A stretch of DNA of 64,000 nucleotides from Pseudogemmobacter hezensis (GTDB lineage Bacteria; Pseudomonadota; Alphaproteobacteria; Rhodobacterales; Rhodobacteraceae): NCBI RefSeq assembly GCF_013155295.1, contig NZ_JABJXT010000001.1, positions 124,001-188,000 of the forward strand, given 5' to 3'. Shown one piece after another: positions 4,465-26,869 of this stretch. The notes under the pieces were generated by a model. It saw only the letters and a program-made list of their open reading frames with translations, had not been told where the DNA came from and made no database searches. Each line of letters opens with the position of its first letter. Within the stretch, counting starts at the first letter, position 1. The position numbers were made by a program, and so were the translations under genes.

Positions 4465-4518
4465 TAAATCCGGCTTAACGTCGGCAGACACTTAAATCCG
4501 GCTTAGCGCCGGCAGACA
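4465..4518. repeat. Tandem pair of 26-bp repeats upstream of dadA
   Basis: Two copies of a 26-bp unit beginning TAAATCCGGCTTA and ending CGGCAGACA occupy 4465-4490 and 4493-4518 (period 28 bp). They differ at two positions only (AACGTC versus AGCGCC in the middle). They lie 46-99 bp before the dadA start codon, in the place of its promoter or 5' leader. They may be duplicated regulator sites or a recent slippage duplication. Confidence 0.8.
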
Positions 4519-4563
4519 GGCCGGGCATGGGCAAAAGATCCGCCCGGCAACAGGGGATGGCAT

Positions 4564-5814
4564 ATGAAGGTCGTGGTTCTGGGCGGTGGGGTCGTGGGCA
4601 TTACCTCGGCCTGGTATCTGGCGAAAGCCGGGCATGAGGTGACGGTGATCGACCGCGAGAACGGCCCGGCGCTGGAAACCTCTTTCGCCAATGCGGGCGA
4701 GGTTTCATTTGGCTATTGCAGCCCCTGGGCCGCGCCGGGCATCCCGCTGAAGGCGATCAAATGGGTGATGATGGAGCATGCGCCGCTGATCCTGCGCCTG
4801 AAGCTCGACACCAAAATGATCTCCTGGCTGTTCAAGATGCTCAGGAACTGCACGGCCTCGCGCTATGCGATCAACAAAAGCCGTATGCTGCGCATCGCCG
4901 ATTACTCACGCGAAAGCTTTGCCCAGATCCGCCAGGAGACGGGGATCCAATATGACCAGCAGATGCTGGGCACGCTGCAGCTGTTCCGCACCGAGGCGCA
5001 GCTGGAGGCCTCGGCCAAGGATGTCAAAGCGCTGAAGGCCGATGGCATTCCCTGCGAAGTGCTCGACGCCGAGGCCTGTATCGCGGTCGAGCCCGCCCTG
5101 GCCCATGCCAAAGACCGCATCGTCGGCGGCCTGCGCACACCGCTGGACGAGACCGGGGATTGCTTCAAATTCACCAATGCGCTGGCGGCGCTTTGCGCGG
5201 AAAGGGGCGTAACCTTCCGCTGGGGCGAGACGATCCGCCATATCGAGACCGAGGGCGGACGGGCCACCGGGGTGGTCACTGACAAAGGCCTGATTGAGGC
5301 CGATGCGGTCGTGGTCAGCCTGGGCAGCTTCTCGCCGCAGATGGTCGCGCCTTTGGGCATTGATCTGCCGGTCTATCCGGTCAAGGGCTATTCGCTGACC
5401 ATCCCGATCACCGATGAGGCCCGCGCGCCGCAATCGACGATCATGGACGAGACCTATAAGATTGCGATCACCCGTCTGGGCGACCGGATCCGGGTGGGGG
5501 GTATGGCGGAAATCTCGGGCTATAACAGCCGTCTGTCGGAAAAGCGCCGTCGCACGCTGGAGCATTCGGTGATGGATCTGTTCCCGGGTGGCGATCCGAA
5601 ACAGGCCACCTTCTGGACCGGGATGCGCCCGATGACGCCCGATGGCACCCCGGTGATCGGGCCGACCAAAATCGACGGGCTGTTCCTGAATACCGGCCAC
5701 GGCACCCTGGGCTGGACGATGAGCTGCGGCTCTGGCCGACTGCTTGCCGATCTGGTTTCAGGCAGAACGCCGGAAATTGACGCCCAGGATCTGGCGATCA
5801 GCCGCTATGCCTGA
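4564..5814 (+). CDS. dadA: D-amino acid dehydrogenase
   Basis: A 416-residue flavoprotein matching the usual length of DadA small subunits. The N-terminal dinucleotide-binding motif [19 protein letters not shown] is followed by the acidic end VIDRE. The C-terminal half has the family stretch [11 protein letters not shown] and the FAD-contact region [17 protein letters not shown]. It oxidises D-amino acids (mainly D-alanine) to 2-oxo acids and passes electrons to the respiratory quinone pool at the inner membrane. It starts at ATG 4564 after a GGGGATG-like ribosome-binding site. No alanine racemase gene (dadX) follows, unlike in Pseudomonas; instead a strong terminator lies 18 bp after the stop. 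Confidence 0.93.
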
Positions 5815-5832
5815 GGGCACATGGCCCATCTG

Positions 5833-5876
5833 AAACAACGCGCCCGCCACAGGTATCTGCGGCGGGCGCGTTGTTT
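5833..5876. terminator. Bidirectional terminator between dadA and the ABC exporter
   Basis: A perfect 16-bp stem (5833-5848 with 5861-5876) with a 12-base loop. It is rich in CGCCCGCC/GGCGGGCG and ends in TTGTTTT rightward and AACAAA leftward. It sits between two convergent genes and can stop transcription from both sides. Confidence 0.85.
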
Positions 5877-5898
5877 TCAGGCTGATCTCAGGCAGGTT

Positions 5899-7791
5899 TC
5901 AGCCCCGGGCAGCCAGGCCTTGATCCCCGGCACCGCCTGTCTGGGCCTCATCAGCGTCACAGGCGGCCTCGGTTTCCTCTTCGGCCCGTTGCTGCGCCCA
6001 CATCGCCGCGTAACGGCCATTTTGCGCCAGCAATTCCTCATGCCGCCCCTGCTCAGAGACCTGGCCGCGATCCATCACCAGGATGCAATCGGCATCGGCA
6101 ATCGTCGACAGCCGATGCGCAATGGTGATCACCGAGCGCCCCTGCCCCATTTCGCGCAGCGATTCCTGGATCGAGCGCTCGGTCTGGGTGTCCAGCGCCG
6201 AGGTCGCCTCATCCAGGATCAGGATTGGCGGGTTCTTCAGGATGGTGCGGGCGATGCCCACCCGCTGCTTTTCGCCGCCCGACAGCTTCAGCCCGCGCTC
6301 GCCGACGATGGTGTCATAGCCCTCGGGCAGGCTTTCGATGAAGTCATGGATCCTGGCGGCACGGGCGGCGGCGAAAATCTCGGCATCGCTGGCCTGATCG
6401 CGGCCATAGCCGATGTTGTAGCGGATCGTGTCGTTGAAAAGCACGGTGTCCTGCGGCACGACGCCGATCGCCTCATGCAGGCTGCTTTGCGTAACGTCAC
6501 GGATATCCTGGCCATCAATGCGGATCGCACCGCCGGTCACATCGTAAAAGCGGAACAAAAGCCGCGCCACGGTGGATTTGCCCGAGCCCGAATGCCCGAC
6601 CAGCGCCAGTGTCTGCCCCGGCCCGACCCGAAAGCTGACGCCTTTCAGGATCTCACGCGAGGGGTCATAGGCGAATTTCACCTGATCAAAGGTGATCTCG
6701 CCGCCCTTCACCGCCAGCGGCTTTGCATCGGGCGCATCCACAACCTCGGCCGGTTGCGACAACAGGCCAAACATCGCGCCCATATCGACCAGCGCCTGAC
6801 GGATCTCACGATAGACCGTGCCGAGGAAGCCCAGCGGCATGGTGATCTGGATCATATAGGCATTGACCATGACGAAATCGCCCACCGTCAGCTGCCCCTG
6901 CTGCACGCCAAGCGCTGCCATCACCATCACCGCCACCAGCCCCGCCGTGATCAAAAGCGTTTGGCCGATGTTCAGAAAGGACAGCGAAAGCCCGGTTTTG
7001 ACTGCCGCCGCCTCATAGAGCCGCATCGCGCCGTCATAGCGCGCCGCCTCGCGCGTTTCGGCGTTGAAATACTTCACCGTCTCATAGTTCAGCAGGCTGT
7101 CGACCGCCTTCTGGTTTGCATCCGTGTCCTGGTCATTCATCTCCTGGCGAATCTTCACACGCCATTCTGTCACAGCAAAGGTGAACCAGACGTAAAGCGT
7201 GATCGTGCCTGCGACGACGGCGGCATAGCTCCAGCCGAAGGTGAAGGCGAAGATCAGCGTGACCAGCGCCAGCTCCAGGATCAGCGGCCCGATGGAAAAC
7301 AGCAGGAAGCGCAAGAGGAACTCGACGCCTTTGACGCCGCGCTCGATGATCCTGGACAGGCCACCCGTGCGGCGCGAAATGTGGTAACGCATTGAAAGGC
7401 GGTGGATATGTCCGAATGTCTCCAGCGCCAGACGCCGCAGCGCCCGCTGCGCCACCCGCACGAATACCGCATCGCGCAATTCCTGGAACACCACCGATCC
7501 AAGCCGTGCAAGACCGTAGGCCACCACCAGACCGACAGCGCCAAAAGCCACCAGCCGCGCCGGATCATGCGCGGTTTCCCCCGCAAGCCCATCGACGGCC
7601 AGCTTGTAAAACCAGGGCGTGATCACCGAGATCACCTTCGAGACCAGCAAAAACGCCATCGCCAGCAGCACGCGCCTGCGCACCCAGGGCTGATCTTTGG
7701 GCCAAAGATGGGGGGTGACGCGGGCAATGGTTTGCCAGCCCGAAGCCGGCGCATCGGGGGATGCGGTTTCAGTCAGAACGGGGTCGGACAT
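5899..7791 (-). CDS. Atm1-type ABC exporter (fused membrane and ATPase domains)
   Basis: A 630-residue half-transporter. Residues about 30-335 are the six-helix type IV exporter membrane domain. About 365-605 is the ATPase with Walker A GHSGSGKST (about 398-406), signature LSGGEKQRV (about 502) and Walker B ILILDEATSALD. The sequence matches the Atm1/HMT1 subfamily, whose bacterial members export glutathione or thiol-metal conjugates and give heavy-metal tolerance, and whose mitochondrial members feed cytosolic Fe-S assembly. It acts as a homodimer in the inner membrane. It is divergent from an ArsR-type regulator across a 112-bp gap with a palindrome, which suggests metal- or redox-responsive control (inference). 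The acidic C-terminal tail (EEETEAACDADEAQTGG) contains one cysteine. Confidence 0.9.
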   Translation of the reverse strand: MSDPVLTETASPDAPASGWQTIARVTPHLWPKDQPWVRRRVLLAMAFLLVSKVISVITPWFYKLAVDGLAGETAHDPARLVAFGAVGLVVAYGLARLGSVVFQELRDAVFVRVAQRALRRLALETFGHIHRLSMRYHISRRTGGLSRIIERGVKGVEFLLRFLLFSIGPLILELALVTLIFAFTFGWSYAAVVAGTITLYVWFTFAVTEWRVKIRQEMNDQDTDANQKAVDSLLNYETVKYFNAETREAARYDGAMRLYEAAAVKTGLSLSFLNIGQTLLITAGLVAVMVMAALGVQQGQLTVGDFVMVNAYMIQITMPLGFLGTVYREIRQALVDMGAMFGLLSQPAEVVDAPDAKPLAVKGGEITFDQVKFAYDPSREILKGVSFRVGPGQTLALVGHSGSGKSTVARLLFRFYDVTGGAIRIDGQDIRDVTQSSLHEAIGVVPQDTVLFNDTIRYNIGYGRDQASDAEIFAAARAARIHDFIESLPEGYDTIVGERGLKLSGGEKQRVGIARTILKNPPILILDEATSALDTQTERSIQESLREMGQGRSVITIAHRLSTIADADCILVMDRGQVSEQGRHEELLAQNGRYAAMWAQQRAEEETEAACDADEAQTGGAGDQGLAARG

Positions 7792-7876
7792 GGTTTGCTC
7801 TCGCTACAGGGCTGCGGCGGTGGCTCGGAGAGTGGCCTTCGGCGATTGCTTTCCGGGTCGGCGGCGGCTAGGGTAA

Positions 7877-7902
7877 TTTCAACTGTTCATGAATAGTTGA
7901 AA
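7877..7902. promoter_or_regulatory. 26-bp palindrome, likely ArsR-family operator
   Basis: TTTCAACT (7877-7884) and AGTTGAAA (7895-7902) flank the self-complementary core TTCATGAA (7886-7893). Only one base pair of the whole 26 bp fails to match. It ends one base before the ArsR-type ATG at 7904 and lies 86 bp upstream of the ABC exporter start. ArsR-family repressors bind palindromes of this kind, often with TTCA..TGAA elements, so autoregulation and control of the exporter are likely. Confidence 0.75.
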
Positions 7903-7903
7903 C

Positions 7904-8455
7904 ATGGATCAGAGTAAAGAGCCACAGCCGCAGGCCCCGAATGCTGCCCGGGGGACGGCGTCGCATGATCTTGCGACGCAGCTTCCCGATGTTGCGCGCC
8001 CCAGCCAGGATCTGGAGAAAAATCCGGGCGATAATCCGGGCCACAATCCGGGCCAGCGCACGAAAGAGGCTGCAGCAGATGCCGCCGCTCAGGCCCGCAC
8101 CAGCGCAATCGCGGCCTTTTCGGCGCTGTCAAACGGCGATCGGCTGGACCTTCTGCGCCTGCTGTTTCGTGCCGGAGAAGAGGGCATGGCCGCCGGAGAG
8201 ATCGCAAGGCAGCTGGGGCTTTCCGCCTCGCGCCTGTCGTTTCACCTCTCGCAGCTTGAGCAGGCCGGGCTGTTGCGCGCCCGAAAAATGGCGCGAAACG
8301 TCTTTTATGCGGTCGAGCCGCAGGGGTTTGGCCGGGCCCTGTCCTGGCTTTTGAACGATTGCTGCGGCGATCATCCCGGCCTGATTTCCTGCTGCCAACC
8401 GCTGGCGGACCGGGGGAAAAGCGGGGCCGCTGCGCTTAACGACCCGGAAGCGTGA
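7904..8455 (+). CDS. ArsR-family winged-helix regulator with cysteine-rich tail
   Basis: 183 residues. The first 65 are low-complexity and hydrophilic, with a small repeat (NPGDNPGHNPGQ). Residues about 68-145 are the ArsR winged helix: FSALSNGDRLDLLRLLFRAG, then the recognition helix LSASRLSFHLSQLEQAGLL and the wing ARKMARNVFYAVEP. The tail holds two cysteine pairs (NDCCGDHP and ISCCQP), a plausible thiol metal or metalloid site, as seen in C-terminal-site ArsR proteins. The ATG at 7904 touches the palindromic operator and has no ribosome-binding site, so the mRNA may be leaderless or translation may begin later. The last 20 bp overlap the convergent LysM gene. Confidence 0.85.
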   Translation: MDQSKEPQPQAPNAARGTASHDLATQLPDVARPSQDLEKNPGDNPGHNPGQRTKEAAADAAAQARTSAIAAFSALSNGDRLDLLRLLFRAGEEGMAAGEIARQLGLSASRLSFHLSQLEQAGLLRARKMARNVFYAVEPQGFGRALSWLLNDCCGDHPGLISCCQPLADRGKSGAAALNDPEA

Positions 8456-9758
8456 AGACCTGGCCCGGATAGATCAGATCAGGGTCGCGGATGCGGTCCC
8501 GATTGGCCTCAAACAGCTGGACATAAAGGACGCCCTCGCCAAACTCATCCCGCGCAATCGCCCAAAGCGTATGGCCGGGCTGAACTGTTATCGTAACCGC
8601 AGCCGGGGCCGCTGGGGCGGTATCCGGGGAACCTGGCGGCAAAGAAGCATCGGGAAGAGCGCCTGGCGTGAGGGGGATAGCCGTCGCCGAATCCGTCGCA
8701 GCCCCCTGAGCCACGCGCAGGTCTGACGCGGGCTTTGCCGCGCTGAGTTGCGCCAGCGCCTCTGGCGTCTCGCGCCGGATCGGGGTCTCGAAACGGGCCG
8801 TGACCGCGCCCGCCCCGTCCAGCTGATCGGCCCGCAGCAGATAGGCGCCCGGGGCAAGCCCGCTCAGCTCTGCCTGCCAGCTTCCTCCGGCCCCGATCTG
8901 CACCGGATCTGCCCCCACCGCCTGATTGTCGAGGTAAAGCCGCACGAATGAGCCCGCCGCCCCCGTGCCACCGATCACCATCACATCGGGCGCGTCATAG
9001 CTGACCGTTGCGACCGCGAAAGATGGCGTCGTGCCCGCCTGCTGGCTGGCGTCTTCAGGCTGTGCGGCGGCGGGTGGCTGCAAAACCGTGACGCCTGCAT
9101 CAGAGATCATCAGCGCGACGGGAGCATCTGGGGCGGCTGGGGCCTCGGCCGTGATCCCGGCCTGCCGGGCGGCGCTGTCCCCGGTATCCGCAGGCGCATC
9201 GGCAACAGCCCCCCCGACCGGACCAATGGCGATCACCCCTGCCGAGGGGATGCGCCGCCCATCTGCGGTTTCCATAACAAGGCTCAGCAAGGCAGGGTTC
9301 GGGTTGGGGGCAAGGCCGGTAACCAGGGCAAACTCACCGTCACGGGTGACGGTGGCTTTGGCGATCAGAGTGCCATCCAGCAATACACCGATCACCGCGC
9401 CCGGCTCGCCCAGGCCGCCAATCGTTGCATCGCCCGTCCCGGTCACCAGCCAGGTGGTAATCTCTGGCGGTGCGATTTCGACGGGAAGGATATCGGCAGG
9501 GGCAGTATCTGAGGGCCCAATATCGGTGGGCCCAATATCCGTGGGCCCAGTATCGGTGGCTACTGTCGCGGCCATGCTCTCTCCGGCGGGCAACAGAGGC
9601 TGACCTGGCGCAGATTGCTCAGCCGGAACTACCGTCGGAACCCCTGCAGGATCCGGGCGCGGCCAGCCATACCAGAGCGCACCGCCGATCACCGCAGCCC
9701 CGGCAAGCCCCAGCACCGCCATTTGCCCCGCACCGCCTGCAGTTTGTAAGGCCTTCAT
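8436..9758 (-). CDS. LysM-domain peptidoglycan-binding membrane protein
   Basis: I chose ATG 9758 (MKALQTAGGAGQM, with GAGG upstream); the frame is open to 9938, but the extra 60 residues look unlike a protein start. That gives 440 residues: a membrane anchor (about 13-31, MAVLGLAGAAVIGGALWYGW), a long Pro/Ala/Thr-rich spacer with Ig-like segments (for example TVSYDAPDVMVIGGTGAAGS), and a C-terminal LysM domain of about 50 residues (PGHTLWAIARDEFGEGVLY to YPGQVFTLP). LysM binds N-acetylglucosamine in the cell wall, so the protein should be a periplasmic, inner-membrane-anchored wall binder. Proteins of this layout are common in Rhodobacteraceae; the exact role is unknown. A 15-bp tandem repeat encodes a DIGPT repeat in the spacer. 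Confidence 0.85.
   Translation of the reverse strand: MKALQTAGGAGQMAVLGLAGAAVIGGALWYGWPRPDPAGVPTVVPAEQSAPGQPLLPAGESMAATVATDTGPTDIGPTDIGPSDTAPADILPVEIAPPEITTWLVTGTGDATIGGLGEPGAVIGVLLDGTLIAKATVTRDGEFALVTGLAPNPNPALLSLVMETADGRRIPSAGVIAIGPVGGAVADAPADTGDSAARQAGITAEAPAAPDAPVALMISDAGVTVLQPPAAAQPEDASQQAGTTPSFAVATVSYDAPDVMVIGGTGAAGSFVRLYLDNQAVGADPVQIGAGGSWQAELSGLAPGAYLLRADQLDGAGAVTARFETPIRRETPEALAQLSAAKPASDLRVAQGAATDSATAIPLTPGALPDASLPPGSPDTAPAAPAAVTITVQPGHTLWAIARDEFGEGVLYVQLFEANRDRIRDPDLIYPGQVFTLPGR
9513..9557. repeat. Three 15-bp tandem repeats inside the LysM gene
   Basis: Three in-frame copies of a unit reading GGGCCCAATATCGGT, at 9513-9527, 9528-9542 and 9543-9557, with one or two base changes. 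They encode a repeated GPTDI-like pentapeptide on the minus strand, in the disordered spacer after the membrane anchor. Copy number probably varies between strains. Confidence 0.85.
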
Positions 9759-10004
9759 CCGCCGTCCATCCTCTGTTCCGTCATGGCCCGTACCAAAGCC
9801 CGGGCCTGCCTCTTTCCGCTGCCAGCCTGCAAAGCCAATCGCCCCGACCATGATCAGACCGGAACCTGACCGGGCTCTGGCCGGGATCTGACCGGGATCT
9901 GGCCCAGGCGGGCTTTGCTGCGTCATTTCCCGTCGCATCGCGGCGGGAATTCGCCTAAACAGAACCTGACATCCCCTTCAAAGCAAATGAAATCAGGACC
10001 TCTT

Positions 10005-10559
10005 ATGCAGCTTCCCTCGATCTGCGTCTTCTGCGGCTCACGCCCTGGCACCAATCCCGCCCATGTCCAGGCCGCCCAGGCCTTTGGACGTGAGATTGCG
10101 GGCAATCAGTGGCGGCTGGTTTACGGCGCGGGCGATGTTGGCCTGATGGGCGAGGTTGCACGCGCGGCCCAGGCCGCCGGGGCGCCCTCGCTGGGGGTGA
10201 TCCCGGTGCATCTGCTGGGCGCTGAAAAGGGCAAGCGCGACCTCACAACCTTTGTCATCACCGAAGACATGCATGAGCGCAAAAAGGTCATGTTCATGAA
10301 TTCCGACGTGATCGTGGTGCTGCCGGGCGGCGCGGGCAGCCTTGATGAGTTTTTCGAGGTGCTGACATGGGCGCAGATCGGGCTGCATAAAAAGCCGATC
10401 TATCTGCTGGATGTCGATGGCTACTGGCAGCCGCTGCTGGCCCTTATGCGCCATATCATCGAGCAGGGCTTTGCTGCCGAAAGCCTGAACGGGCTGTTCC
10501 GCACAGTGCCCGATGTTGCCAGCCTGGCGGCCTCGATCCGCAGCGATCTGAAGGCCTGA
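10005..10559 (+). CDS. LOG-family protein (nucleoside 5'-monophosphate phosphoribohydrolase type)
   Basis: 184 residues from ATG 10005, which follows AGGA at the right distance; an upstream in-frame start at 9915 adds an unlikely leader. It has the TIGR00730 Rossmann fold: SICVFCGSRPG at the start, VYGAGDVGLMGEVA in the middle and the family signature PGGAGSLDEFFEVLTW (usual form PGGxGTxxE, here Ser in place of Thr). Family members cleave N6-modified AMP or other nucleoside monophosphates at the N-glycosidic bond (LONELY GUY activity). It stands alone and is divergent from the LysM gene. Confidence 0.9.
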   Translation: MQLPSICVFCGSRPGTNPAHVQAAQAFGREIAGNQWRLVYGAGDVGLMGEVARAAQAAGAPSLGVIPVHLLGAEKGKRDLTTFVITEDMHERKKVMFMNSDVIVVLPGGAGSLDEFFEVLTWAQIGLHKKPIYLLDVDGYWQPLLALMRHIIEQGFAAESLNGLFRTVPDVASLAASIRSDLKA

Positions 10560-10561
10560 TT

Positions 10562-10659
10562 CTGCAGGCATGAAGCCTGCAGGTCAAAGATCTGCGGGCC
10601 GAGCTATATGCAGGCCTGACCGCCTGTCCCGCCGCAGACCGTTACAGGGATGCGGCGGG
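10562..10659. other. Two hairpins between convergent genes
   Basis: The first hairpin has an 8-bp stem, CTGCAGGC (10562-10569) with GCCTGCAG (10575-10582), loop ATGAA, directly after the LOG gene stop. The second has a 9-bp stem, CCCGCCGCA (10628-10636) with TGCGGCGGG (10651-10659), 13 bp beyond the TraB gene stop. Neither has a strong T-run. They may be terminators for the two convergent genes or RNA 3'-end stabilisers. Confidence 0.45.
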
Positions 10660-10671
10660 GAATGGGCGGGG

Positions 10672-11802
10672 CTATTCGGCCTCGCCTGGCAGGGGGACAC
10701 GGTCGACCTGATATCCGGCATCGCGCAGCATGGTGACAAGGCCCAGATCGCCCGGCAGATGCCCCGATCCGACCACGAACACCGCCCCGCCCTGATCTGC
10801 CAGCGGCGCAATCCGCCCCATCCATATCGCATTGCGCTCGACCAGCAGGTAGCTGTCGGCCAGGGCCACAGTCTCAGCGCCACGCGCCTCGCCCAACACC
10901 TCAATCGCCCAGGCCTCGGACCAGGCCGAAATAAAGCCGATCCTGCCCTGGCGATAGAGCGCATATGCGGTGCCGCGCAGGCCTGGGTGCGCCGATTGGG
11001 GCCCGAGATACAGGCTGTAAAGCAGGGCACCCGCCCGCGCCTCAGCCGCGCGTTTCGGATCGCTCAGCTCTTCGCCAAAGGCCCAGTTGTCCTGCAGCCC
11101 GGTGACCTTTGCCCCGGCCAGCCAGGCAGTATGGGCGATGTAATTGTCCTGGCCGGGGGCAAAGCCCACAAGGTAATCATCGCATGGATCGCGAAGCAGA
11201 ACGTTCAGAAGGCCCGCATCACTCATCACCGGCAAATAGGCAGGATCCCAGCCAAGCGAGGCCAGCCGCATCCTGATATAGTCCAGATATTCGGGCGGAA
11301 AATCGCTGCGTTCATCATAGACGTTATCGGTCTGGTTCCAGATCCAGGCCTGGTCATAAAAGCGGCCCAGATCATCCTGGCTTTTCGGGGCCGGATCAAA
11401 TTCCAGCGTCACCACCCGCGCCTGGGCCAGCACCTCACGCAGCGCGTCGGGCAGATCGACAATCGCGGGCGCAGGCGAGTGATAGCTGCCCCACAGATGC
11501 GAGACCTGCCCCCCGGGCGCGGTGATCTTCCACATCCGCCCCACGCCATTGGGGATCTGCGCGGCCAGGGCCTCAAGGCGGGCCTCTTCGGCCTCTGGCA
11601 GCAGGTCGCGGTTGATCGCAATCTCATCCGGGTGGCAGATCCCGGGGGTAAACCAGGCCTGGGCCTTCACCGCCGACGGGCCAGACAGGCTGGCCAGCAG
11701 CGCCATTGCAAAAGCCAGAACCCCGCCCCGGAAAAAGCCCGGGCCGCGCGTCTTCCCGGCTGTCTCTGCCCCCAATTCAATGCCTTTACCGAGTAACACC
11801 AC
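10672..11802 (-). CDS. TraB/GumN family protein
   Basis: 376 residues from a GTG at 11802. The N-terminus carries a hydrophobic export segment (GGVLAFAMALLASLSGPSAVKA, about 27-48) that ends in a likely cleavage site, so the protein is probably periplasmic. Family motifs are visible: HLWGSYHSP, the acidic strand VVTLEFDP, the helix ERNAIWMGRIAPL and the C-terminal GSGHLPGDLGLVTML. TraB/GumN proteins share the PrgY/TIKI metalloprotease-like fold; the bacterial substrate is not known. It is convergent with the LOG gene and has no obvious operon partner. Confidence 0.85.
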   Translation of the reverse strand: MVLLGKGIELGAETAGKTRGPGFFRGGVLAFAMALLASLSGPSAVKAQAWFTPGICHPDEIAINRDLLPEAEEARLEALAAQIPNGVGRMWKITAPGGQVSHLWGSYHSPAPAIVDLPDALREVLAQARVVTLEFDPAPKSQDDLGRFYDQAWIWNQTDNVYDERSDFPPEYLDYIRMRLASLGWDPAYLPVMSDAGLLNVLLRDPCDDYLVGFAPGQDNYIAHTAWLAGAKVTGLQDNWAFGEELSDPKRAAEARAGALLYSLYLGPQSAHPGLRGTAYALYRQGRIGFISAWSEAWAIEVLGEARGAETVALADSYLLVERNAIWMGRIAPLADQGGAVFVVGSGHLPGDLGLVTMLRDAGYQVDRVPLPGEAE

Positions 11803-11894
11803 AACCAGACCTCATTCTCTTGCGGATCCGGTCCAGGCATTCCCGGGCCAGAGCTTGCGCCCCAAAGGCTGCCCGATCCTGGCATAAATAAAAA

Positions 11895-11920
11895 GCCCTG
11901 CCGAAAATCTTCGGCAGGGC
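11895..11920 (-). terminator. Rho-independent terminator of sodB
   Basis: A perfect 11-bp stem, GCCCTGCCGAA (11895-11905) with TTCGGCAGGGC (11910-11920), and a 4-base loop. Reading leftward it is followed by TTTTTATTTAT. It lies 40 bp beyond the superoxide dismutase stop. Confidence 0.92.
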
Positions 11921-11960
11921 CTCGATAGAGTTAAGCACGCTCAGGCGCTGTCTGACGCGC

Positions 11961-12560
11961 TCAGAGGCGGGCCTCGACGGCTTCCCAGTTGACCAGCTTT
12001 TCAAGGAAGTTCGACAGGTAAGCCGGGCGCTTGTTGCGGAAGTCGATGTAATACGAGTGCTCCCATACATCGACGCCCAGCAGCGCGGTCTGGCCAAAGA
12101 CCAGCGGGTTGACGCCGTTTTCGGTCTTGGTGACCTTAAGGCTGCCATCCTTGTCTTTCACCAGCCAGGCCCAGCCCGAACCGAACTGGCCAGCGCCAGC
12201 AGCGGCGAAATCTTCCTTGAATTTCGCAACCGAGCCGAAGGATTCGACCAGTGCTTTTTCCAGGCGGCCCGGGATGCCGACCTGGTCAGGCCCCATGATT
12301 TCCCAGAACAGATTGTGGTTCCAGTGCTGCGAGGCATTGTTGAAAATGCCATTTTGCGCAACTGCGCCAGCCTGATAGGTGCCGACCACGATCTCTTCGA
12401 GCGATTTCTTTTCCCACTCGGTGCCGGCGATCAGCTTGTTGCCGTTGTCGACATAGGCCTTATGGTGCAGGTCGTGGTGGAACTCGAGCGTTTCCATCGA
12501 CATGCCAAGCGGCTCAAGCGCATTGTATTTATAGGGCAGATCGGGAAGGTGAAACGTCAT
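11961..12560 (-). CDS. sodB: Superoxide dismutase, Fe type
   Basis: 199 residues from ATG 12560 (AGGAG upstream); the open frame upstream is rejected because this start gives the normal MTFHLPDLPY N-terminus. It dismutates superoxide to H2O2 and O2 in the cytoplasm. Metal ligands are His28 (EFHHDLHHKAYV), His82 (WNHNLFW), and the Asp and His of the signature DVWEHSYY. The glutamine of NNASQHWNH corresponds to the active-site Gln that marks Fe-type rather than Mn-type enzymes; use of Mn cannot be excluded. It is a single gene with its own terminator. Confidence 0.96.
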   Translation of the reverse strand: MTFHLPDLPYKYNALEPLGMSMETLEFHHDLHHKAYVDNGNKLIAGTEWEKKSLEEIVVGTYQAGAVAQNGIFNNASQHWNHNLFWEIMGPDQVGIPGRLEKALVESFGSVAKFKEDFAAAGAGQFGSGWAWLVKDKDGSLKVTKTENGVNPLVFGQTALLGVDVWEHSYYIDFRNKRPAYLSNFLEKLVNWEAVEARL

Positions 12561-12818
12561 CGGACTTAACTCCTGTTCGGGTTTCAGGTTACCACTGGAA
12601 TAAGGGCGCATCTGACCCGAAGGTCAAGCCCGCAGCGGGAAAAGAGAACCGCCTTCTCCTGCTCTGGCCCCCGCTTTGGACCCCAGAACTGCCCGCAACT
12701 CTGGCCCCAGCTCTGGCCCCCACTCTGGCCTGAGGCCAGGCTGCTTTCCGCCTGCCCCCCACCCCGCGCGCCCCAGCCCGCGCTGTGCAGGCACCGCCCG
12801 GGGGGGGACGCAGGGCGA

Positions 12819-13367
12819 TCAGATCTCGCTGCCAGGCTGTGCCGAATGGGTCAAAAGCCCCATCACATAACCCGCGACCGAGCGGAAACAGACCAGAGTA
12901 TAGCCGCCATCGACAGGCCAGAAGGCCGCAGCCACCTGGGCAAACCGCGAGCGGCGGATCTCATCGGCGGCCAGAGCACCCGGATCCGCGGGGCTCAGCT
13001 TGCGCAAAACCTGGTCGGCATTGGGCCCCGTCACGCGAAACACCGCCCGCGCGTCAGAGACATCGACCGCCAGGTGATGCTGGCCAGACAGCGCCGCTGC
13101 AATCGCCGCCAGCGCCTTTGCAACATCGCCGTAGGGCAGCACCAGCAGATATTCATCCGGGCTCATCCAGCCACAGCTGTTGTCACCCGCATGGGTGATG
13201 CGCCGCGCATCAGGCAGAGCGCAGCCATTGGCCGCTTTGATCGCCTCGGCCAGACGAGCGGTGCCGGGCTTTGCCCGCAGGGTGATCATCCCCAGCGGGC
13301 CGATTTCTGCGACGCGGGCAAAGCCTTCGCTGACCGCGCCATTCAGGGCTGAAACGGGCTCAGACAT
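12819..13367 (-). CDS. soxG: Sarcosine oxidase gamma subunit
   Basis: 182 residues from ATG 13367, whose ATG overlaps the soxA stop by 8 bp. It is the last gene of the soxB-soxD-soxA-soxG operon. It resembles the aminomethyltransferase-like fold of SoxG (LGMITLRAKPGTARLAEAI; SPDEYLLVLPYGD; VDVSDARAVFRVTGPNA). In heterotetrameric sarcosine oxidase, gamma packs against alpha and helps form the folate-handling part. Upstream in-frame starts lie inside soxA and are rejected. Confidence 0.93.
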   Translation of the reverse strand: MSEPVSALNGAVSEGFARVAEIGPLGMITLRAKPGTARLAEAIKAANGCALPDARRITHAGDNSCGWMSPDEYLLVLPYGDVAKALAAIAAALSGQHHLAVDVSDARAVFRVTGPNADQVLRKLSPADPGALAADEIRRSRFAQVAAAFWPVDGGYTLVCFRSVAGYVMGLLTHSAQPGSEI

Positions 13368-16300
13368 TCTGTTTCTCCCCATCCTTGTCATAGAATACCG
13401 GATCGACCACCTTCGCCGAGACCGAAACACCGCCGGTCATCGAGGTGAACTCGACCACCTCGCCCATCCGCGCAGGCCCATTTTTCAAAAGCCCCATCGC
13501 AATCCCCTTCTTCAGGGTCGGCGAATAATAGGTCGAGGTGATGCGGCCCTGCGCATTTCTGAACCCATATTCATTGGTGCCGGGCGCGATCACATAGGCC
13601 CCGTCAGGGATCACCGTGCCGTCGATGCTTTCAAAGCCGACCAGCTTCCAGCGGTCTTTCGCGGCCAGATAGGTCCGCTGCTGGCCGCGTTTGCCGAGGA
13701 AATCCTCTTTCTTCTTCGAGATCGCCCAGTCGAGGTTCAGATCCTGCGGGATCACCGTCCCGTCGGTCTCATCCCCGATCATGATAAAGCCCTTCTCGGC
13801 GCGAAGAACGTGCAGGCCTTCGGTGCCATAGGGCTGGAGGCCAAACTCCTGGCCCGCCTCATAAAGACGCTCCCAGAAGGCCAGGGCGTGGCTTGCGGGA
13901 ACGGCGATCTCATAGCTCAGCTCGCCCGAGAAAGAGATGCGGTGCACGCGCACCGGGAAGCCGCCCAGCTCGCCGTCTTTGAAGGTCATGAAGGGCAGCG
14001 CCTCTTTCGAGACATCCATCCCGCCAAGTTTCTCAAGCAATTTCCGGCCATTGGGGCCGACGACGGCGATCTGGCCATATTGCTCGGTGACATTGGCGGT
14101 GAATACCTGCCAGTCCCACCATTCGCATTGCAGCCAGTCTTCCATCCAGCCGTGGATCCGGTCCGCGCCCCCCGAGGTGGTATGGCAAAGCCAGGTGTCC
14201 TCATCGATGCGGATGACCACGCCGTCATCCGAGAGGAAGCCCTGCTCGTTGCACATCAGACCATAGCGGCATTTGCCGATGCCGAGGTTCGACATCATAT
14301 TGGTATAGAGCATGTCGAGGAATTTCCCCGCATCCGGCCCTTTGACGATGATCTTGCCCAGCGTCGAGGCATCCAGCAGGCCAAGCCGCTCGCGGGTGTT
14401 GATCACCTCACGGTTGACGGCCTGCTCATGAGTCTCGCCGTGGCGCGGATAGGTATAGGGGCGCTGCCAGAGGCCGACCGGCTCCATATAGGCGCCCTGG
14501 GCGAGGTGCCAGTCATGCATCGGCGTCTTGCGCAGCGGCTGGAAGATGTCGCCCCGCGCCTCACCCGCCAATGCGCCAAGGGTCACGGGCGTATAGGGCG
14601 GGCGGAAGGTGGTGGTGCCAACGCGCGGGATTTCTTCGCCCAAAGCATCAGCAAGCACCGCCAGGCCGTTGATATTCGACAGTTTTCCCTGATCCGTCGC
14701 CATGCCCAGCGTGGTATAGCGCTTGGTATGCTCGACCGAGACATAGCCCTCGCGGGCCGCCAGCTGCACGTCGGAAACCTTCACGTCATTCTGGAAATCG
14801 AGCCACATTTTCGACTTCAGCTCTGGCCCTGCCGAGGCCGGCATGATCCAGACCGGAAGCATGGCCTCTTCTTCCACCGCATCGGCCTGGGCCGCCTGCG
14901 TCAGGCCAGCCTCTTTGCCCAGGGATTGCAGCGTCAGCACCGCCTGGGCTGCCGCATCGGCAAGCCCTGCGGCCGCCGAAAGCGCCCCATTGGCCGCCCC
15001 TGCCGGGTAAACCATAGCCGAGCCGTCATGCGTCAGCGGCGGGCGATCCGCATCGGGGCGGAACAGCGCCCGGGTCTCATCCCAGATCAGCTTGCCGCCG
15101 CAATGGGACCACAGATGCACGACCGGCGACCAGCCGCCCGACATCGCAACCGCATCGCAGGCGATTTCCTCGACCGCGCCGCCCTCTCCGGCCTGAAGGC
15201 CGATGGTGACGCCGGTGACGCGCTTGCAGCCCTTGACCTTGACGATGCCGCGCCCGGTTTCAATGCGGATGCCCATGGCACGGGCGCGGGACGGCAGCTC
15301 TCCGGTCGGGGCCTGGCGGACATCGACCACCGTCACCTCAAGCCCATAGTCCTTCAGCGTGATCGCGGTGCGATAGGCATCGTCATTATTGGTGACGACA
15401 ACTGTGTGATCGCCGGGCGAGACCGCGAAATTCACCGCATAATCGCGGGTCGCCGAGGCCAGCATGACGCCGGGGATGTCGTTTCCGGCGAAAGACAGCG
15501 GGCGCTCCAGCGCACCTGTTGCCGCGATGATCTTTTCCGCGCGGATCCGCCACAGACGCTTGCGGGGCCGCCCGTCGCCGGGGGTATGGTCAGCGATACG
15601 CTCTTCGGCCAGCACATAGCCGTGGTCATAGACGCCCGAGACCATCATGCGGTTGCGCAGGGTGACGTTTTCCATGCCCGCAAGCGTTTGCAGCGTGGCA
15701 CTGATCCAGTCTTCAGCGGGCTTGCCGTCGATGATATCGCCGTCAACCGGGGCACGCCCGCCCCAATGGGCGGTTTGCTCCAGCAAGAGCACATTTGCCC
15801 CCGCAGCGCCTGCGACCAGCGCCGCCTGCAGGCCCGCAATGCCGCCGCCTGCGATCAGGATCTGACAATGGCCATAGGTATATTCGTAACGGTCGGCGTC
15901 CGCCTGTTCGGGCGATTTGCCAAGACCTGCCGAGCGGCGGATAATCGGCTCAAACAGATGTTTCCAGGCCGAGCGCGGGTGGATGAAGGTTTTGTAGTAA
16001 AACCCCGCCGGCAGGAAGCGCGACAGCCTGTTGTTCAGCGCGCCGATGTCGAATTCGAGGCTGGGCCAGTGATTCTGGCTGGCCGAGGTCAGGCCGTCAA
16101 ACAGCTCGGTCGTGGTGACGCGCTGATTGGGCTCGAACCGGGCGCCCTCGCCCAGGCCCACGAGGGCGTTGGGCTCTTCGGGGCCCGAGGCCACGATGCC
16201 ACGCGGGCGGTGATATTTGAACGAGCGCCCGACCAGCAGCTGGTCATTGGCCAGAAGGCCCGAGGCGAGCGTATCGCCTTTGAGACCCTTCATGGTCTTG

Positions 16301-16371
16301 CCGTTGAAGGTAAATTCGATCTGGGCCGATCTGTTGATCAGACGACCGCCTCTTTGCAGCCTCGCGCTCAT
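13360..16371 (-). CDS. soxA: Sarcosine oxidase alpha subunit
   Basis: 1003 residues from ATG 16371, which overlaps the soxD stop as ATGA; an alternative ATG lies 15 bp upstream. Order of parts: an N-terminal ferredoxin-like segment (IEFTFNGKTMKGLKGDTLA), a dinucleotide-binding domain with LIAGGGIAGLQAALVAG (about residue 166), and a C-terminal GcvT-like tetrahydrofolate-binding domain from about 600 (LLDASTLGKIIVKGPDAGKFLDMLY). The tetramer oxidatively demethylates sarcosine to glycine, and the one-carbon unit goes to tetrahydrofolate as 5,10-methylene-THF. The size is normal for SoxA. No glyA is found beside the operon, although it is often part of it. Confidence 0.96.
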   Translation of the reverse strand: MSARLQRGGRLINRSAQIEFTFNGKTMKGLKGDTLASGLLANDQLLVGRSFKYHRPRGIVASGPEEPNALVGLGEGARFEPNQRVTTTELFDGLTSASQNHWPSLEFDIGALNNRLSRFLPAGFYYKTFIHPRSAWKHLFEPIIRRSAGLGKSPEQADADRYEYTYGHCQILIAGGGIAGLQAALVAGAAGANVLLLEQTAHWGGRAPVDGDIIDGKPAEDWISATLQTLAGMENVTLRNRMMVSGVYDHGYVLAEERIADHTPGDGRPRKRLWRIRAEKIIAATGALERPLSFAGNDIPGVMLASATRDYAVNFAVSPGDHTVVVTNNDDAYRTAITLKDYGLEVTVVDVRQAPTGELPSRARAMGIRIETGRGIVKVKGCKRVTGVTIGLQAGEGGAVEEIACDAVAMSGGWSPVVHLWSHCGGKLIWDETRALFRPDADRPPLTHDGSAMVYPAGAANGALSAAAGLADAAAQAVLTLQSLGKEAGLTQAAQADAVEEEAMLPVWIMPASAGPELKSKMWLDFQNDVKVSDVQLAAREGYVSVEHTKRYTTLGMATDQGKLSNINGLAVLADALGEEIPRVGTTTFRPPYTPVTLGALAGEARGDIFQPLRKTPMHDWHLAQGAYMEPVGLWQRPYTYPRHGETHEQAVNREVINTRERLGLLDASTLGKIIVKGPDAGKFLDMLYTNMMSNLGIGKCRYGLMCNEQGFLSDDGVVIRIDEDTWLCHTTSGGADRIHGWMEDWLQCEWWDWQVFTANVTEQYGQIAVVGPNGRKLLEKLGGMDVSKEALPFMTFKDGELGGFPVRVHRISFSGELSYEIAVPASHALAFWERLYEAGQEFGLQPYGTEGLHVLRAEKGFIMIGDETDGTVIPQDLNLDWAISKKKEDFLGKRGQQRTYLAAKDRWKLVGFESIDGTVIPDGAYVIAPGTNEYGFRNAQGRITSTYYSPTLKKGIAMGLLKNGPARMGEVVEFTSMTGGVSVSAKVVDPVFYDKDGEKQNV

Positions 16372-16691
16372 TTCCAGCCCTTCCAATCCGGGCGTTTCGC
16401 CTGGATTTTTGCAATCAGTTCAGCGGGGGGTTCAGTGGTCTGGGCGGGATAGGTGCCGAAAACCTCAAGCGTGGCGGTGCAGCGGGCGGCGAGGAACCAT
16501 TTGCCGCAGCCGTAGGCATGGCGCCAACGCTCAAAATGCACGCCTTTGGGGTTTTTGCGGGCGAACATATAGGCCTCAAACTCCTCATCCGAGGAGCCGG
16601 GGCCGAAGCGTTTCAGATGCGCCTCGCCACCCGGGGCGAGCTCGGTTTCCTCGGCTTTGACGCCGCAGCAGGGACATTCAAGGATCAGCAT
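16368..16691 (-). CDS. soxD: Sarcosine oxidase delta subunit
   Basis: 107 residues from ATG 16691. The start MLILECPCCGVKAEETE and the conserved HAYGCGKWFLAARCTATLEV give the Cys/His zinc-site pattern (Cys6, Cys8-Cys9 region and His/Cys later) typical of SoxD. It is a small structural zinc subunit of the sarcosine oxidase tetramer. It overlaps soxA by 4 bp (ATGA), so the two are translationally coupled. The open frame extends 66 residues upstream into repeat DNA and is not used. Confidence 0.95.
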   Translation of the reverse strand: MLILECPCCGVKAEETELAPGGEAHLKRFGPGSSDEEFEAYMFARKNPKGVHFERWRHAYGCGKWFLAARCTATLEVFGTYPAQTTEPPAELIAKIQAKRPDWKGWK

Positions 16692-16710
16692 GTGGCGGCC
16701 TCCATATGGG

Positions 16711-16803
16711 GAGAAAGCCGGGGGCGCTGCCCGCCGGATTTGACGTCGAGGCGGGGGCTCTGCCCCCGCGCCCCCGGGATATTTTTGGACAGATGAAGGG
16801 GGG
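16711..16803. repeat. Repeat element between soxB and soxD
   Basis: The 118-bp gap inside the sox operon holds a GC-rich hairpin (GCGGGGGC / GCCCCCGC, 16751-16769) and then the motif CCCCCGGGATATTTTTGGAC plus AGATGAAG (16771-16798). The same composite motif (GGGGGCGCTGCCC ... CCCCCGGGATATTT ... GACAGATGAA) recurs at 57116-57176. It looks like a family of short interspersed repeats found after genes. Inside an operon it may lower downstream expression or protect the upstream mRNA end. Confidence 0.7.
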
Positions 16804-20532: not shown

Positions 20533-20551
20533 AACGCGGATCTGTAGCGGC

Positions 20552-20743
20552 CTATCTTTGCCAGCCAAACCGCCGCGCCAGCGCATAGGTGCCCTCGACA
20601 CCCGCGCCCAGGATCGCGCCCAGAAACAGCGCGAGCTCGGGGTCGATGGCCAGGGTCTCACCAAGACCCGCATCAATCACCCCAACCGCCACCAGCGCCC
20701 CTGCGATGTAACGCGCAAGGATCCGTGCAAAGACTGCAATCAT
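20552..20743 (-). CDS. Small membrane protein downstream of amidase
   Basis: 63 residues. Two short hydrophobic segments (about 10-25, IAGALVAVGVIDAGLG, and 35-50, PELALFLGAILGAGVEG) and a basic end (RRFGWQR). Its ATG overlaps the amidase stop by 4 bp, so the two are made together. The pairing of an amidase with a tiny membrane protein resembles an endolysin-holin lysis cassette, but I do not recognise a holin family. It could also be a plain membrane partner or prophage leftover. Confidence 0.65.
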   Translation of the reverse strand: MIAVFARILARYIAGALVAVGVIDAGLGETLAIDPELALFLGAILGAGVEGTYALARRFGWQR

Positions 20744-23973: not shown

Positions 23974-24050
23974 GCCGGCTTAGCTCAGTTGGTTAGAGCA
24001 CCAGATTGTGGATCTGGGGGTCCCCCGTTCGAGCCGGGGAGTCGGTACCA
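23974..24050 (+). tRNA. tRNA-His (anticodon GTG)
   Basis: A full 77-nt cloverleaf including encoded CCA (24048-24050). The anticodon GTG is at 24008-24010 in stem CCAGA/TCTGG, and the T-arm is CCCCG-TTCGAGC-CGGGG. The acceptor is GCCGGCT paired with AGTCGGT, with G1.U72 and one inner G.U wobble. The base before position 1 is T, so there is no encoded G-1, and the discriminator is A73 instead of C73. This is the atypical tRNA-His known from a group of alphaproteobacteria with a matching variant histidyl-tRNA synthetase. Confidence 0.95.
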
Positions 24051-25092
24051 TCTTCCCCATTTATATTGATAATGCGCCACGATCCAAAAATCGGGCTCTT
24101 TGATCATGTCAGGAAACATCTCTGCCTGTGTTGGCGCATCTGCATCGGAGGTGCTGCCATATCACTCTGGTGGTGCCCTGAAATGACGCAGCGCACAGAT
24201 CATCAATAAAACACATTACAACCCCAGAGTCGCATGTCGCACATGCGCCTGCGGTTTCATAACCTGGGCAAGCGCATTCGATAGCCGGCACAGTCTGTCA
24301 GCGCATATTTCATCACGAACCAGGCGACTTTCTGTTTTTTCGTCCTTGCACTCGCGGATTGGATCGGGCAATTAGCCCGCATGTTCCGATGGGTCGGCTG
24401 AAAGCAGACAGAACACGGGATGTGCAGGCTGCAAAATTTCTTCTGAGCGAAACGAGGCACAGAGGAAATAGTACAGCCAAAGTGGGCGACGTGCTGCAAG
24501 GTGCGGCAGCGGACTGTAACTCCGCCGAGGAGACTCATGCCTGGTTCGATTCCAGGGTCGCCCACCACTTCAACTTTGCAAGCGTTTATTTTCGTTTGCA
24601 ATCTTGATCAGCAAATTACGCCCTCAAGAAACCTGTTCCGCTTTTGAACCTCATTGCAGGCCACGCTTGGCTGAGGATGCGATAGTTTTTATACCGTATC
24701 AGGCTTGATCGTCGCGCCTGGCCTTCACGACGGGCGACCAGCGAGCTGTCACTCGACATCATTGCTCCGGTACTTGGGTAACGTATTCGAAGGGCGGGCG
24801 GGGTTCCCGATGTATCCCCCCCCCTAATTGCCCCCCGAATCCCGGATTTCGCCCCCCGGACGCCTAAAGAACGGGCCGGTGAAAACGCAGATCACCGATT
24901 GCCGACAGACTGCGGGCACCGGGGAAGCAGCAGGATTGCTGTACCCGTGATGAGCGGAAAAATGTGAGCCCTTCCTGGGGGCATGGCCTCACTCATGGTG
25001 AGGCAAGAGCCCGCTCGCACCGCCTGTTGCCCCTCCCAAGGCCCTGTTCTCAGGCTGCGGTCGGCGAATCTCGCGGCCTTCTGCAATAGCCA
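24051..25092. other. Accessory remnant region between tRNA-His and dusA
   Basis: Apart from the tRNA at 24484-24567, I find no intact gene in this kilobase. Composition is patchy: AT-rich pieces (24051-24110, 24180-24230, 24570-24620) alternate with C-runs (24826-24860). The open frames present have no domain I recognise; a minus-strand frame at 24257-24601 is just the reverse of the tRNA (it gives the tell-tale GDPGIEPG translation). With the integrase fragment to its right, the region reads as the eroded body of an integrated element. Confidence 0.6.
24484..24567 (+). tRNA. Extra tRNA-Tyr (anticodon GTA), class II
   Basis: An 84-nt cloverleaf with encoded CCA (24565-24567) and A73. All stems pair: acceptor GGGCGAC/GTCGCCC, D-stem GCTG/CGGC (one G.U), anticodon stem GCGGA/TCCGC with loop CTGTAAC, T-stem CCTGG/CCAGG with loop TTCGATT. 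The long variable arm (14 nt, with GAG/CTC) fits bacterial tRNA-Tyr. Unusual core: position 8 is G instead of U, and position 14 is C instead of A. It lies in the remnant region upstream of dusA and may have come with a mobile element. Whether it is functional is open. Confidence 0.8.
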
Positions 25093-25247
25093 GCCCAATT
25101 TCCGCCTCGCGCTTTTTACCTCGGCATCGGCGTCCTTGCGGTTGTCGAAGGTCTGGCTCTCGCGGTAGGTATCAAAGCTTCTACGGATGATCCGGGCACA
25201 GATACCCGGCCTTCGTCTTTTCTCTCTCGTTCGGTAATGCTCGCCAT
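25093..25247 (-). pseudogene. Tyrosine integrase N-terminal fragment, frameshifted
   Basis: Reading leftward from ATG 25247, the first frame gives MASITERERKDEGRVS, the typical N-terminus of phage-type tyrosine integrases. The match then continues in another frame from about 25200 with CARIIRRSF...TYRESQTFDNRKDADAEVKSARRKLG. In intact integrases these pieces are continuous (KDGRVSYRAQIR...SQTFDRRKDAEAWAKRREAEL). So there is one frameshift within the first 20 codons and nothing of the SAM-like or catalytic domain can be found after about 25093. It starts 110 bp upstream of dusA and points away from it. Confidence 0.8.
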
Positions 25248-25357
25248 GTTCCTTGCACCACCTGTCACGTCTGATCGCCAGTCTCGGCGCCTGGTCATCA
25301 GCCATACGCAGTGTCCCGGAGAGCAAAGATCAGACAATAAACCGGAGCACCCCTGCG

Positions 25358-26374
25358 ATGAATGATATCGTAAAATCAAATACTTACAAAAGTCACAGAG
25401 TGTCGGTTGCGCCAATGATGGATTGGACAGACCGCCATTGTCGCTATTTCCATCGCCTGATGTCGCAAAGGGCCATGCTTTATACAGAGATGGTTACGGC
25501 ACCCGCGATCGTGCACGGGCCAAAGCCGCGGCTTCTGGACTTTTCCGCCGCGGAACACCCGGTCGCGTTACAGCTGGGCGGCTCGGACCCTGATGAGCTG
25601 GCGGCGGCGGTCAGGATCGCGCGACCCTGGGGTTATGATGAGATCAATCTGAATTGCGGCTGCCCCTCGGACAGGGTGCAATCGGGGTGCTTTGGTGCGG
25701 TTTTGATGAAAGATCCGGCGCTGGTCGCCGCTTGCGTGACCCGGATGCAGGCCGAGGCGGATGTGCCGGTCACGGTAAAATGCCGCATCGGCGTTGATGA
25801 TCAGAATGAGGAAGAGATCCTCCCCGCCTTTATCGAAACACTGGCAGAGGCGGGAATCACCCATTTCATCATCCATGCCCGCAAGGCCTGGCTGCAGGGG
25901 CTGTCCCCCAAAGAGAACCGCGAGATCCCGCCACTGAATTACCCGCTGGTCCATCGCATGAAAGCACAGTTCCCCGAACTGACGATCTGCCTGAATGGCG
26001 GCGTCGCTGACCTGGCCTCGGCCGAGGCGCTGCTGACGCCGGGCGCGGACAGGGTCGCGCTTGATGGTGTGATGATCGGGCGGGCGGCCTATCACGATCC
26101 GGGCGCCGCGCTGCTGGGGGCCGACCGGCTTTGGGGCGGGGATCCGCAGCCCGCGCAGCAGCCTGATCGTCAGGATATCGTGCATAGGATGCTGCCCTAT
26201 ATCGAGGCCCACCTGGCCGAGGGCGGGCGGCTGCACCAGATCACCCGCCATATGCTGGGCCTGTTTCACGGCCTGCCCGGGGCCAGGGGCTGGCGGCGTG
26301 TGCTGTCAGAGAAGGCCTCACGTGACGGGGCGAATGGCGATACCGTGCTTGAGGCGCTGGCGCAGCTGGGCTGA
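25358..26374 (+). CDS. dusA: tRNA-dihydrouridine synthase DusA
   Basis: 338 residues from ATG 25358 (GGAG 13 bp before); the frame is open from 25253 but that leader is island DNA. FMN-dependent reduction of U20/U20a in the tRNA D-loop. Motifs: VAPMMDWTDRHCR at the start, catalytic Cys102 in NLNCGCPSDRV, HARKAWLQGLSPKENR (DusA-specific), and GVMIGRAAYHDP. The 5' end is odd: only 22 of the first 60 bases are G or C, then composition becomes normal. dusA 5' ends are known attachment sites of integrative elements, and an integrase fragment lies just upstream, so the first codons may have been supplied by an element. Confidence 0.95.
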   Translation: MNDIVKSNTYKSHRVSVAPMMDWTDRHCRYFHRLMSQRAMLYTEMVTAPAIVHGPKPRLLDFSAAEHPVALQLGGSDPDELAAAVRIARPWGYDEINLNCGCPSDRVQSGCFGAVLMKDPALVAACVTRMQAEADVPVTVKCRIGVDDQNEEEILPAFIETLAEAGITHFIIHARKAWLQGLSPKENREIPPLNYPLVHRMKAQFPELTICLNGGVADLASAEALLTPGADRVALDGVMIGRAAYHDPGAALLGADRLWGGDPQPAQQPDRQDIVHRMLPYIEAHLAEGGRLHQITRHMLGLFHGLPGARGWRRVLSEKASRDGANGDTVLEALAQLG

Positions 26375-26653
26375 CCTGGGCCACCTCTCGCGCAGGATTT
26401 GGCGTGACAATCGCGCCCGGCTGGTTCAATGGAGGCCTGTCAGTTGTGACTGCGGTCTTTGCGACAGCAGGGTGGCGGCAGGCGGACGTTAACAGACAGA
26501 CGGCAGCGGGCGGGCAAGAACACCCTGCGACAATCTCAGGGGAAACCCGCGGATGCGCATCGCCCTCACCATCGGCCTCTGTCGGGTCTGCGGCTTTTTC
26601 CCTCTTCGAAACAGGCGGCGGGCAAGACCTAACTCATGCGAAGCGGGGCCGTT

Positions 26654-26869
26654 ATGGGCATCAACAAACAAAGCGATATCGCCGCCAATATCCAGATCGG
26701 GCCAACCGATGCCGGAATGGTGCGGATCTATATCGAGGCCGAGGGCGGGGTAGAACTGCCGCTGGATTTCGACCCCGAAGAGGCCGAAGAAATCGCAGAG
26801 GAGCTGCGGGCCGCAGCTGAGGCAGCGCGCCTGATGGCCAGCGAAGGCAGCAAACCAAAGCGCCGCTGA
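26654..26869 (+). CDS. Small acidic conserved protein (DUF6324-like)
   Basis: 71 residues from ATG 26654 (an in-frame ATG lies 18 bp upstream). The sequence MGINKQSDIAANIQIGPTDAGMVRIYIEAEG, then LDFDPEEAEEIAEELRAAAEAA, matches a small family found in Rhodobacterales, which I recall as DUF6324. A beta-strand part is followed by an acidic helix. Function unknown. It is followed by two perfect hairpins. Confidence 0.75.
   Translation: MGINKQSDIAANIQIGPTDAGMVRIYIEAEGGVELPLDFDPEEAEEIAEELRAAAEAARLMASEGSKPKRR

Follow-up and report, generated by a model that had tools for sequence, protein, structure and literature searches.

How did dusA come to lie behind two tRNA genes with the scrap of a tyrosine integrase at its 5' end, and what does this arrangement record? 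We addressed this question in a 64,000-nucleotide stretch of the Pseudogemmobacter hezensis genome, a 4.6 Mb draft assembly of 64 contigs (contig NZ_JABJXT010000001.1, positions 124,001 to 188,000; hereafter the window, whose own numbering is used throughout). A first-pass annotation of this DNA had proposed that an integrative element entered at dusA, rewrote the start of the gene and then decayed, leaving a hybrid and intact gene. This proposal is supported by homology to dusA-associated integrases and by a comparison of dusA starts between genomes. Our preferred reading, which we hold at a probability of about 0.86, is that a dusA-specific element entered, gave dusA a new start and decayed with dusA kept intact, and that the scarred dusA was relocated together with tRNA-Tyr behind tRNA-His. 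The features that carry the first part of this reading are the following.

25031..25247, minus strand: integrase N-terminus of about 72 codons with two frame changes, recognised by homology to dusA-associated tyrosine integrases
25358..26374, plus strand: dusA, intact (NF008774 DusA, E=1.3e-147; PF01207, E=1.5e-79)
25358..25412, plus strand: probable element-supplied dusA start of about 17-22 codons, its crossover end approximate, from the contrast in guanine-plus-cytosine (GC) content and the comparison with genome G188
25400..25428, plus strand: attachment (att) core within dusA (attR), with one mismatch to the core pattern

The integrase remnant begins with an ATG at 25247, 110 bp from the start of dusA (25358), and is divergent to it. 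A truncated and frameshifted integrase N-terminus had already been reported here, and it was found to extend beyond the proposed limit of 25093 to 25031, in three reading frames: MASITERERKDEG (25247-25209), ARIIRRSFDTYRESQTFDNRKDADA (25197-25123) and KKREAEIGLAIAEGREIRRPQPENRALGG (25117-25031). When these segments were strung together with X at the breaks and used as a query (threshold E<=1e-3), they matched 25 of 295 genomes of the family, that is, the own genome and 24 of the 294 others. All 24 matches in other genomes start at query residue 1-6, and dusA directly adjoins the match, in divergent orientation, in 21 of the 24 fetched loci. The best match showed 51% identity over query residues 1-64 (E=1.7e-11 for one genome). 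Comparison of the pieces with tyrosine recombinases, a check proposed at the outset, thus returned the right family at the right place. Integrases of the dusA-associated (DAI) family and dusA-specific genomic islands have been described by Farrugia et al. 2015 (PMC4482086, here taken from part of that paper), and two features of the family, homology to dusA-adjacent integrases and a position directly upstream of dusA, are both present. By this comparison, in both its integrase identity and its position, the remnant is evidently the N-terminus of a DAI. It comprises about 72 of the 356-370 residues of an integrase, and the RHRH/Y catalytic residues were not found in it; as its catalytic domain is absent or unrecognisable, we regard it as a broken DAI relic and not as an active member. 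Farther along the minus strand, the segment 25005-24879 gave weak collinear matches to the C-terminal half of integrases, with a hidden Markov model (HMM) score that 1 of 100 shuffles also reached; in frameshift-aware alignments 11 of 120 and 15 of 120 shuffles did as well, which is not significant.

The second trace lies in dusA itself. There are 22 G/C among its first 60 bases, as the first-pass annotation had counted, and the GC content is 0.37 in bases 1-60, 0.53 in bases 61-120 and 0.60 in bases 121-180. The start is therefore AT-rich as claimed, over about 60 bp and not over the ~150 bp originally given, with the anomalous part ending near the conserved core VAPMMDW. Measured as the GC of the 51 bases ahead of this core relative to the dusA gene body, the drop in the window amounts to -0.30. 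The median drop was -0.28 in loci with an integrase (n=45, 21 of them chosen by integrase similarity) and -0.035 in loci without one (n=67; Mann-Whitney p=4.9e-13). A second, non-overlapping sample of 116 loci, taken by rank of DusA similarity, gave medians of -0.28 (n=30) and -0.03 (n=86; one-sided p=3.6e-9); the p-values are optimistic, since related genomes are non-independent and the second sample was ranked by DusA similarity. Moreover, a 13-mer in the dusA start, GTAAAATCAAATA, is common to the window and G256, the genome with the closest integrase. An element-supplied 5' end, one of the marks of a dusA-specific genomic island, is thus indicated by GC and by a sequence signature against other loci, and by this comparison the dusA start in the window appears clearly to be of the element type.

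It could be argued that the AT-rich start is the host's own, that the integrase-like pieces arose by chance and that no element was ever present. Indeed, two of the pieces have no Pfam match, and loci in which no integrase was detected were as AT-shifted as the window in 3 of 67 cases, and in 4 of 86 in the second sample. These small fractions also mean that relatives in which no integrase was detected do not share the AT-rich start as a rule, which was the outcome that would have spoken against the original proposal. Furthermore, the three AT-shifted integrase-free loci of the first sample, to which this inspection was confined, look like scars themselves: the dusA starts of L101 and L104 are similar to the element-type one of the congener G001, and L126 has an integrase-like N-terminus upstream. 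Given also that 21 of the 24 remnant matches directly adjoin dusA, an origin without any element is hardly credible. Within the genus, the integrase is intact in G001, open as far as readable in G004 and reduced to remnants in G002, G007, G008 and G012; none was detected in G003, G005, G006, G009 and G011, and G010 offers too little upstream DNA. The dusA of the window is the only full-length copy detected in its genome (the other own-genome match is 32% identical) and is strongly constrained 3' of the att core, with a ratio of nonsynonymous to synonymous differences (pN/pS) of 0.05-0.09 over 100 codons in a crude count against three congeners.

The geometry of such an insertion can be read from G188 (locus L216), a genome of the same family that harbours a ~14 kb dusA-specific element (2771-16770) with both att ends kept. 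Here the att core lies in dusA (attR), and ~14 kb away an orphan native dusA start, MATLSVNEHARLSCAPMMD, is followed by element DNA, the core being common to attR and attL. This suggests that DNA upstream of the core would be element-derived and DNA downstream of it native, so that the element-derived part of the window dusA would amount to ~17-22 codons. The G188 element resembles the window in having an integrase of the same lineage (43% identity over 72 aa with the remnant) and a replaced dusA start; it differs in its ~14 kb, in its two att ends and in its cargo of resolvase, VWA, PP2C and kinase genes. The VWA, PP2C and protein kinase genes stand in a row in that element and are possibly a defence or stress module. 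In the genome of the window, the core at 25400-25428 is the sole match at <=3 mismatches.

The second part of our reading concerns the place in which this scarred dusA is now found, for which the following further features are needed.

20537..20554, no strand: junction of the ruvX-DUF1289 block with the amidase-tex-tRNA-His block, from locus comparison
23974..24050, plus strand: tRNA-His (gtg), from ARAGORN; its 3' end marks the left boundary of the putatively relocated segment
24063..24451, no strand: unassigned DNA from tRNA-His to tRNA-Tyr, with no homologue found in the collections searched
24484..24567, plus strand: tRNA-Tyr (gta), from ARAGORN, away from its usual neighbour rlmB
24568..25030, no strand: unassigned DNA, in which 25005-24879 is the weak candidate C-terminal integrase piece
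26375..26647, no strand: unassigned DNA from dusA to DUF6324, right edge of the putatively relocated segment

The names RuvX, RlmB, betaine-homocysteine methyltransferase (bmt), fructose-6-phosphate aldolase (fsaB) and DusA come from NCBIfam, where PurC matched below the cut-off, and DUF6324 and Amidase_2 come from Pfam; further neighbours are those that we take to be Tex, DUF1289, purS, a corrinoid protein and TSUP.

The interval from tRNA-His to dusA had been described as free of intact genes and read as the body of the element. Neither description holds: the interval contains tRNA-Tyr, the only copy detected when the own genome was searched with it, and tRNA-His was found upstream of dusA in none of the 11 congeners with DNA there (the twelfth is G010, whose contig stops at dusA). 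The divergent tex/tRNA-His arrangement is also present in 5 of 12 congeners, and the tRNA-His region was fetched from five, namely G001, G004, G005, G007 and G012. Four of these, G001, G005, G007 and G012, are collinear with the window to the left and to the right of the segment, and the distance from the end of the tRNA-His homology (24051-24062) to DUF6324 (~26648) is 78-95 bp in them versus ~2.59 kb in the window, where the segment carries tRNA-Tyr and dusA. In all 12 congeners tRNA-Tyr lies just upstream of rlmB and divergent to it; the own rlmB is found 266 kb away on the same contig, without tRNA-Tyr, and the aldolase gene that lies 3' of tRNA-Tyr in G001, G007 and G012 sits on another contig. 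For dusA, 6 of the 12 congeners have DUF1289, with ruvX behind it, in convergent orientation within ~4.3 kb downstream, and DUF1289 follows dusA in 53 of 118 and 49 of 116 loci of the family. In the window, dusA has DUF1289-ruvX 4.8 kb upstream of it, with 20537/20554 as the junction between these genes and the amidase-tex-tRNA-His block. The neighbourhoods have thus evidently changed, as judged by these comparisons, and the interval resembles what would result if dusA and tRNA-Tyr had been moved to the tRNA-His locus.

With regard to the origin of the moved genes, G000 is sister to a group formed by G004, G001, G007 and G012 in the dusA tree as well as in the tex tree, and because the two trees agree, dusA most likely moved within the lineage; a foreign dusA was rejected on this ground. 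A tRNA-Tyr element as the source of the insert was also rejected, the own-genome search having yielded no second piece of tRNA-Tyr. As an observation from another congener, G007 (L085) carries a ~3.6 kb element flanked by tRNA-Tyr (5458-5541) on one side and by a duplicate of the tRNA-Tyr 3' half (9019-9082) on the other; a couple of base differences separate the two 3' halves, which would fit an element that brought in a new one.

The window order was also considered as ancestral and set aside, since 0 of the 11 testable congeners show it. Two loci point towards it: Jhaorihella (L152), which has DUF6324, tRNA-His and dusA together, and G331 (L316), in which dusA lies beside bmt-purC and the gene presumed to encode a corrinoid protein, close to the locus that it occupies in the window, with no tRNA-His within 3 kb. 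They are the only such cases in 118 and 116 loci, most of which were viewed over only 1.5-6 kb each side. By hand reasoning, one inversion between the own rlmB and the window is not enough to recover the ancestral order. The distance between dusA and ruvX ranges from ~32 kb in G001 to nearly 1 Mb in G007 and G012, with DusA 93-96% identical, which argues that this neighbourhood rearranges often.

A different account of the segment would make the whole ~2.6 kb the remnant of a second integrative element at the tRNA-His 3' end, with tRNA-Tyr and dusA as cargo and the native copies lost later. The insert does begin just behind tRNA-His, the usual tRNA-Tyr site by rlmB is empty, and at the same position G004 has other DNA, 10 kb or more in length, that encodes a relaxase and a type IV secretion system coupling protein. 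However, a search of the window at <=3 mismatches gave no second tRNA-His 3' end, the duplication expected at the far edge; the match between the DusA and tex trees makes it unlikely that the cargo came from outside the lineage; and tRNA-Tyr sits between tRNA-His and the integrase scrap. On balance we consider a tRNA-His element with such cargo unlikely. Irrespective of this window, the G004 insert raises the possibility that tRNA-His serves as an integration site in the genus. A chimeric assembly that wrongly joined separate loci could also mimic a relocation, as the genome is a draft of 64 contigs. This is very unlikely: the genome offers an assembler no misleading second match to 24051-25420 (best other E=0.12) or to 26372-26650 (best other E=0.32), and tRNA-Tyr is absent from the 20 kb around the own rlmB and from the 18 kb around the aldolase gene.

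Several results nevertheless weigh against an element at dusA followed by relocation. With its catalytic domain lacking, the remnant is assigned to the DAI by its N-terminus alone; two of its pieces have no Pfam match, it has no match among plasmids, and its phage matches are weak (9 records, E=0.5), all of them Pseudomonas phages, H66 among them. The paired att site that the first-pass annotation had suggested looking for was not found in the own genome at <=3 mismatches, nor were the paired 21 bp repeats of an island, although this search is weak, since six positions, on a count by eye, would differ in the G188 attL. At the edges of the segment, no part of the window repeats the tRNA-His 3' end at <=3 mismatches, none of the 20 listed direct repeats (of 23) brackets the segment, and the relocation is known from one draft assembly. 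Finally, we compared DAI presence with the retention of DUF1289 as a neighbour in 231 distinct dusA loci, 180 of which have 3 kb of downstream DNA. DUF1289 was kept within 3 kb in 15 of 51 DAI loci and 43 of 129 others (p=0.72), and at 3.9 kb in 14 of 26 and 26 of 62 (p=0.35). As DAI presence is not associated with loss of this neighbour, nothing ties the relocation to the element, and element-driven relocation was rejected as a general rule.

A broader hypothesis is that islands at fixed sites, such as tRNA 3' ends and the dusA 5' end, act as rearrangement joints, and that their decay welds the anchors together, carrying single-copy tRNA or tRNA-modifying genes to new places. Three anchors, tRNA-His, tRNA-Tyr and dusA, are stacked within 2.6 kb here. 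Among other loci, a tRNA gene ends <=~560 bp upstream of dusA in 4 of 115 (the sample in which the pattern was noticed) and in 3 of 116 of the second sample, and all seven tRNA genes lie on the dusA strand with the 3' end facing dusA. The expectation is ~0.8 per sample on any strand, at one tRNA per 80 kb (second sample p=0.049; same strand p=0.008), and one tRNA was found within 560 bp downstream of dusA in the second sample. Against this hypothesis, an HMM search detected an integrase remnant in none of the seven loci, so that co-transcription or gene-order drift explains the pattern equally well, and DAI presence does not predict displacement of dusA. We therefore regard rearrangement joints as rather doubtful. 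The seven loci (L133, L152, L157, L169, L223, L265 and L335) carry tRNA Trp, His, Met, Asn, Ser, Arg and Glu.

Under our preferred reading, then, a dusA-specific element would have inserted at dusA and supplied its new 5' end, probably together with a working promoter, as shown in print for another dusA element, and DusA function would have been retained. The element would then have decayed, leaving the integrase as an N-terminal pseudogene of ~72 codons and the rest, with the second att, lost or beyond recognition. Either independently or with the element still in place, a chromosomal rearrangement may have brought the scarred dusA and the single detected tRNA-Tyr behind tRNA-His; two inversions would be enough to produce the dusA part from the common order. 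We infer both this order of events and the route by inversions.

Compared with the DAI islands as presented in the part of PMC4482086 used here, the window has in common an integrase gene by the dusA 5' end, an element-supplied dusA 5' end and a conserved target in the dusA start, and phage H66, listed there among phages with DAI homologues, is among the 9 phage records matched by the remnant (E=0.5). It differs in that only ~72 N-terminal codons are left, no paired att was found and dusA has moved. IMEVchUSA3 of Vibrio cholerae, as portrayed in part of PMC8409611, is an active, mobilisable element studied by experiment, in which dusA stays expressed at a reduced level, whereas the window holds a decayed scar known from sequence alone. 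The scar is a new example of a kind already known, and a well-supported one. What is unusual is to find tRNA-Tyr and dusA stacked behind tRNA-His, and in the literature searched we found no report of a dusA or tRNA-Tyr relocation of this kind; the DAI scar, ordinary in itself, lies within a relocation of two core genes that is unusual. The locus shows what remains of a vanished dusA-specific element, namely a short stub of the integrase and a dusA that is chimeric yet constrained, and the GC contrast between dusA start and body could serve to count past integrations in element-free genomes. As a core tRNA gene that changes place between related species, the relocated single-copy tRNA-Tyr is a clear candidate.

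Searches with the remaining DNA added little. The stretch 24568-25357 had no match among phages, 24051-25357 and 26360-26660 matched plasmids at tRNA-Tyr only, and the unassigned stretches had no homologues among the fetched loci, no search aimed at insertion sequences having been made. A promoter scan returned one site, on the minus strand, about the number expected from shuffles. Rfam recovered tRNA-His, tRNA-Tyr as a below-threshold tRNA-Sec match, and one further match far below threshold.
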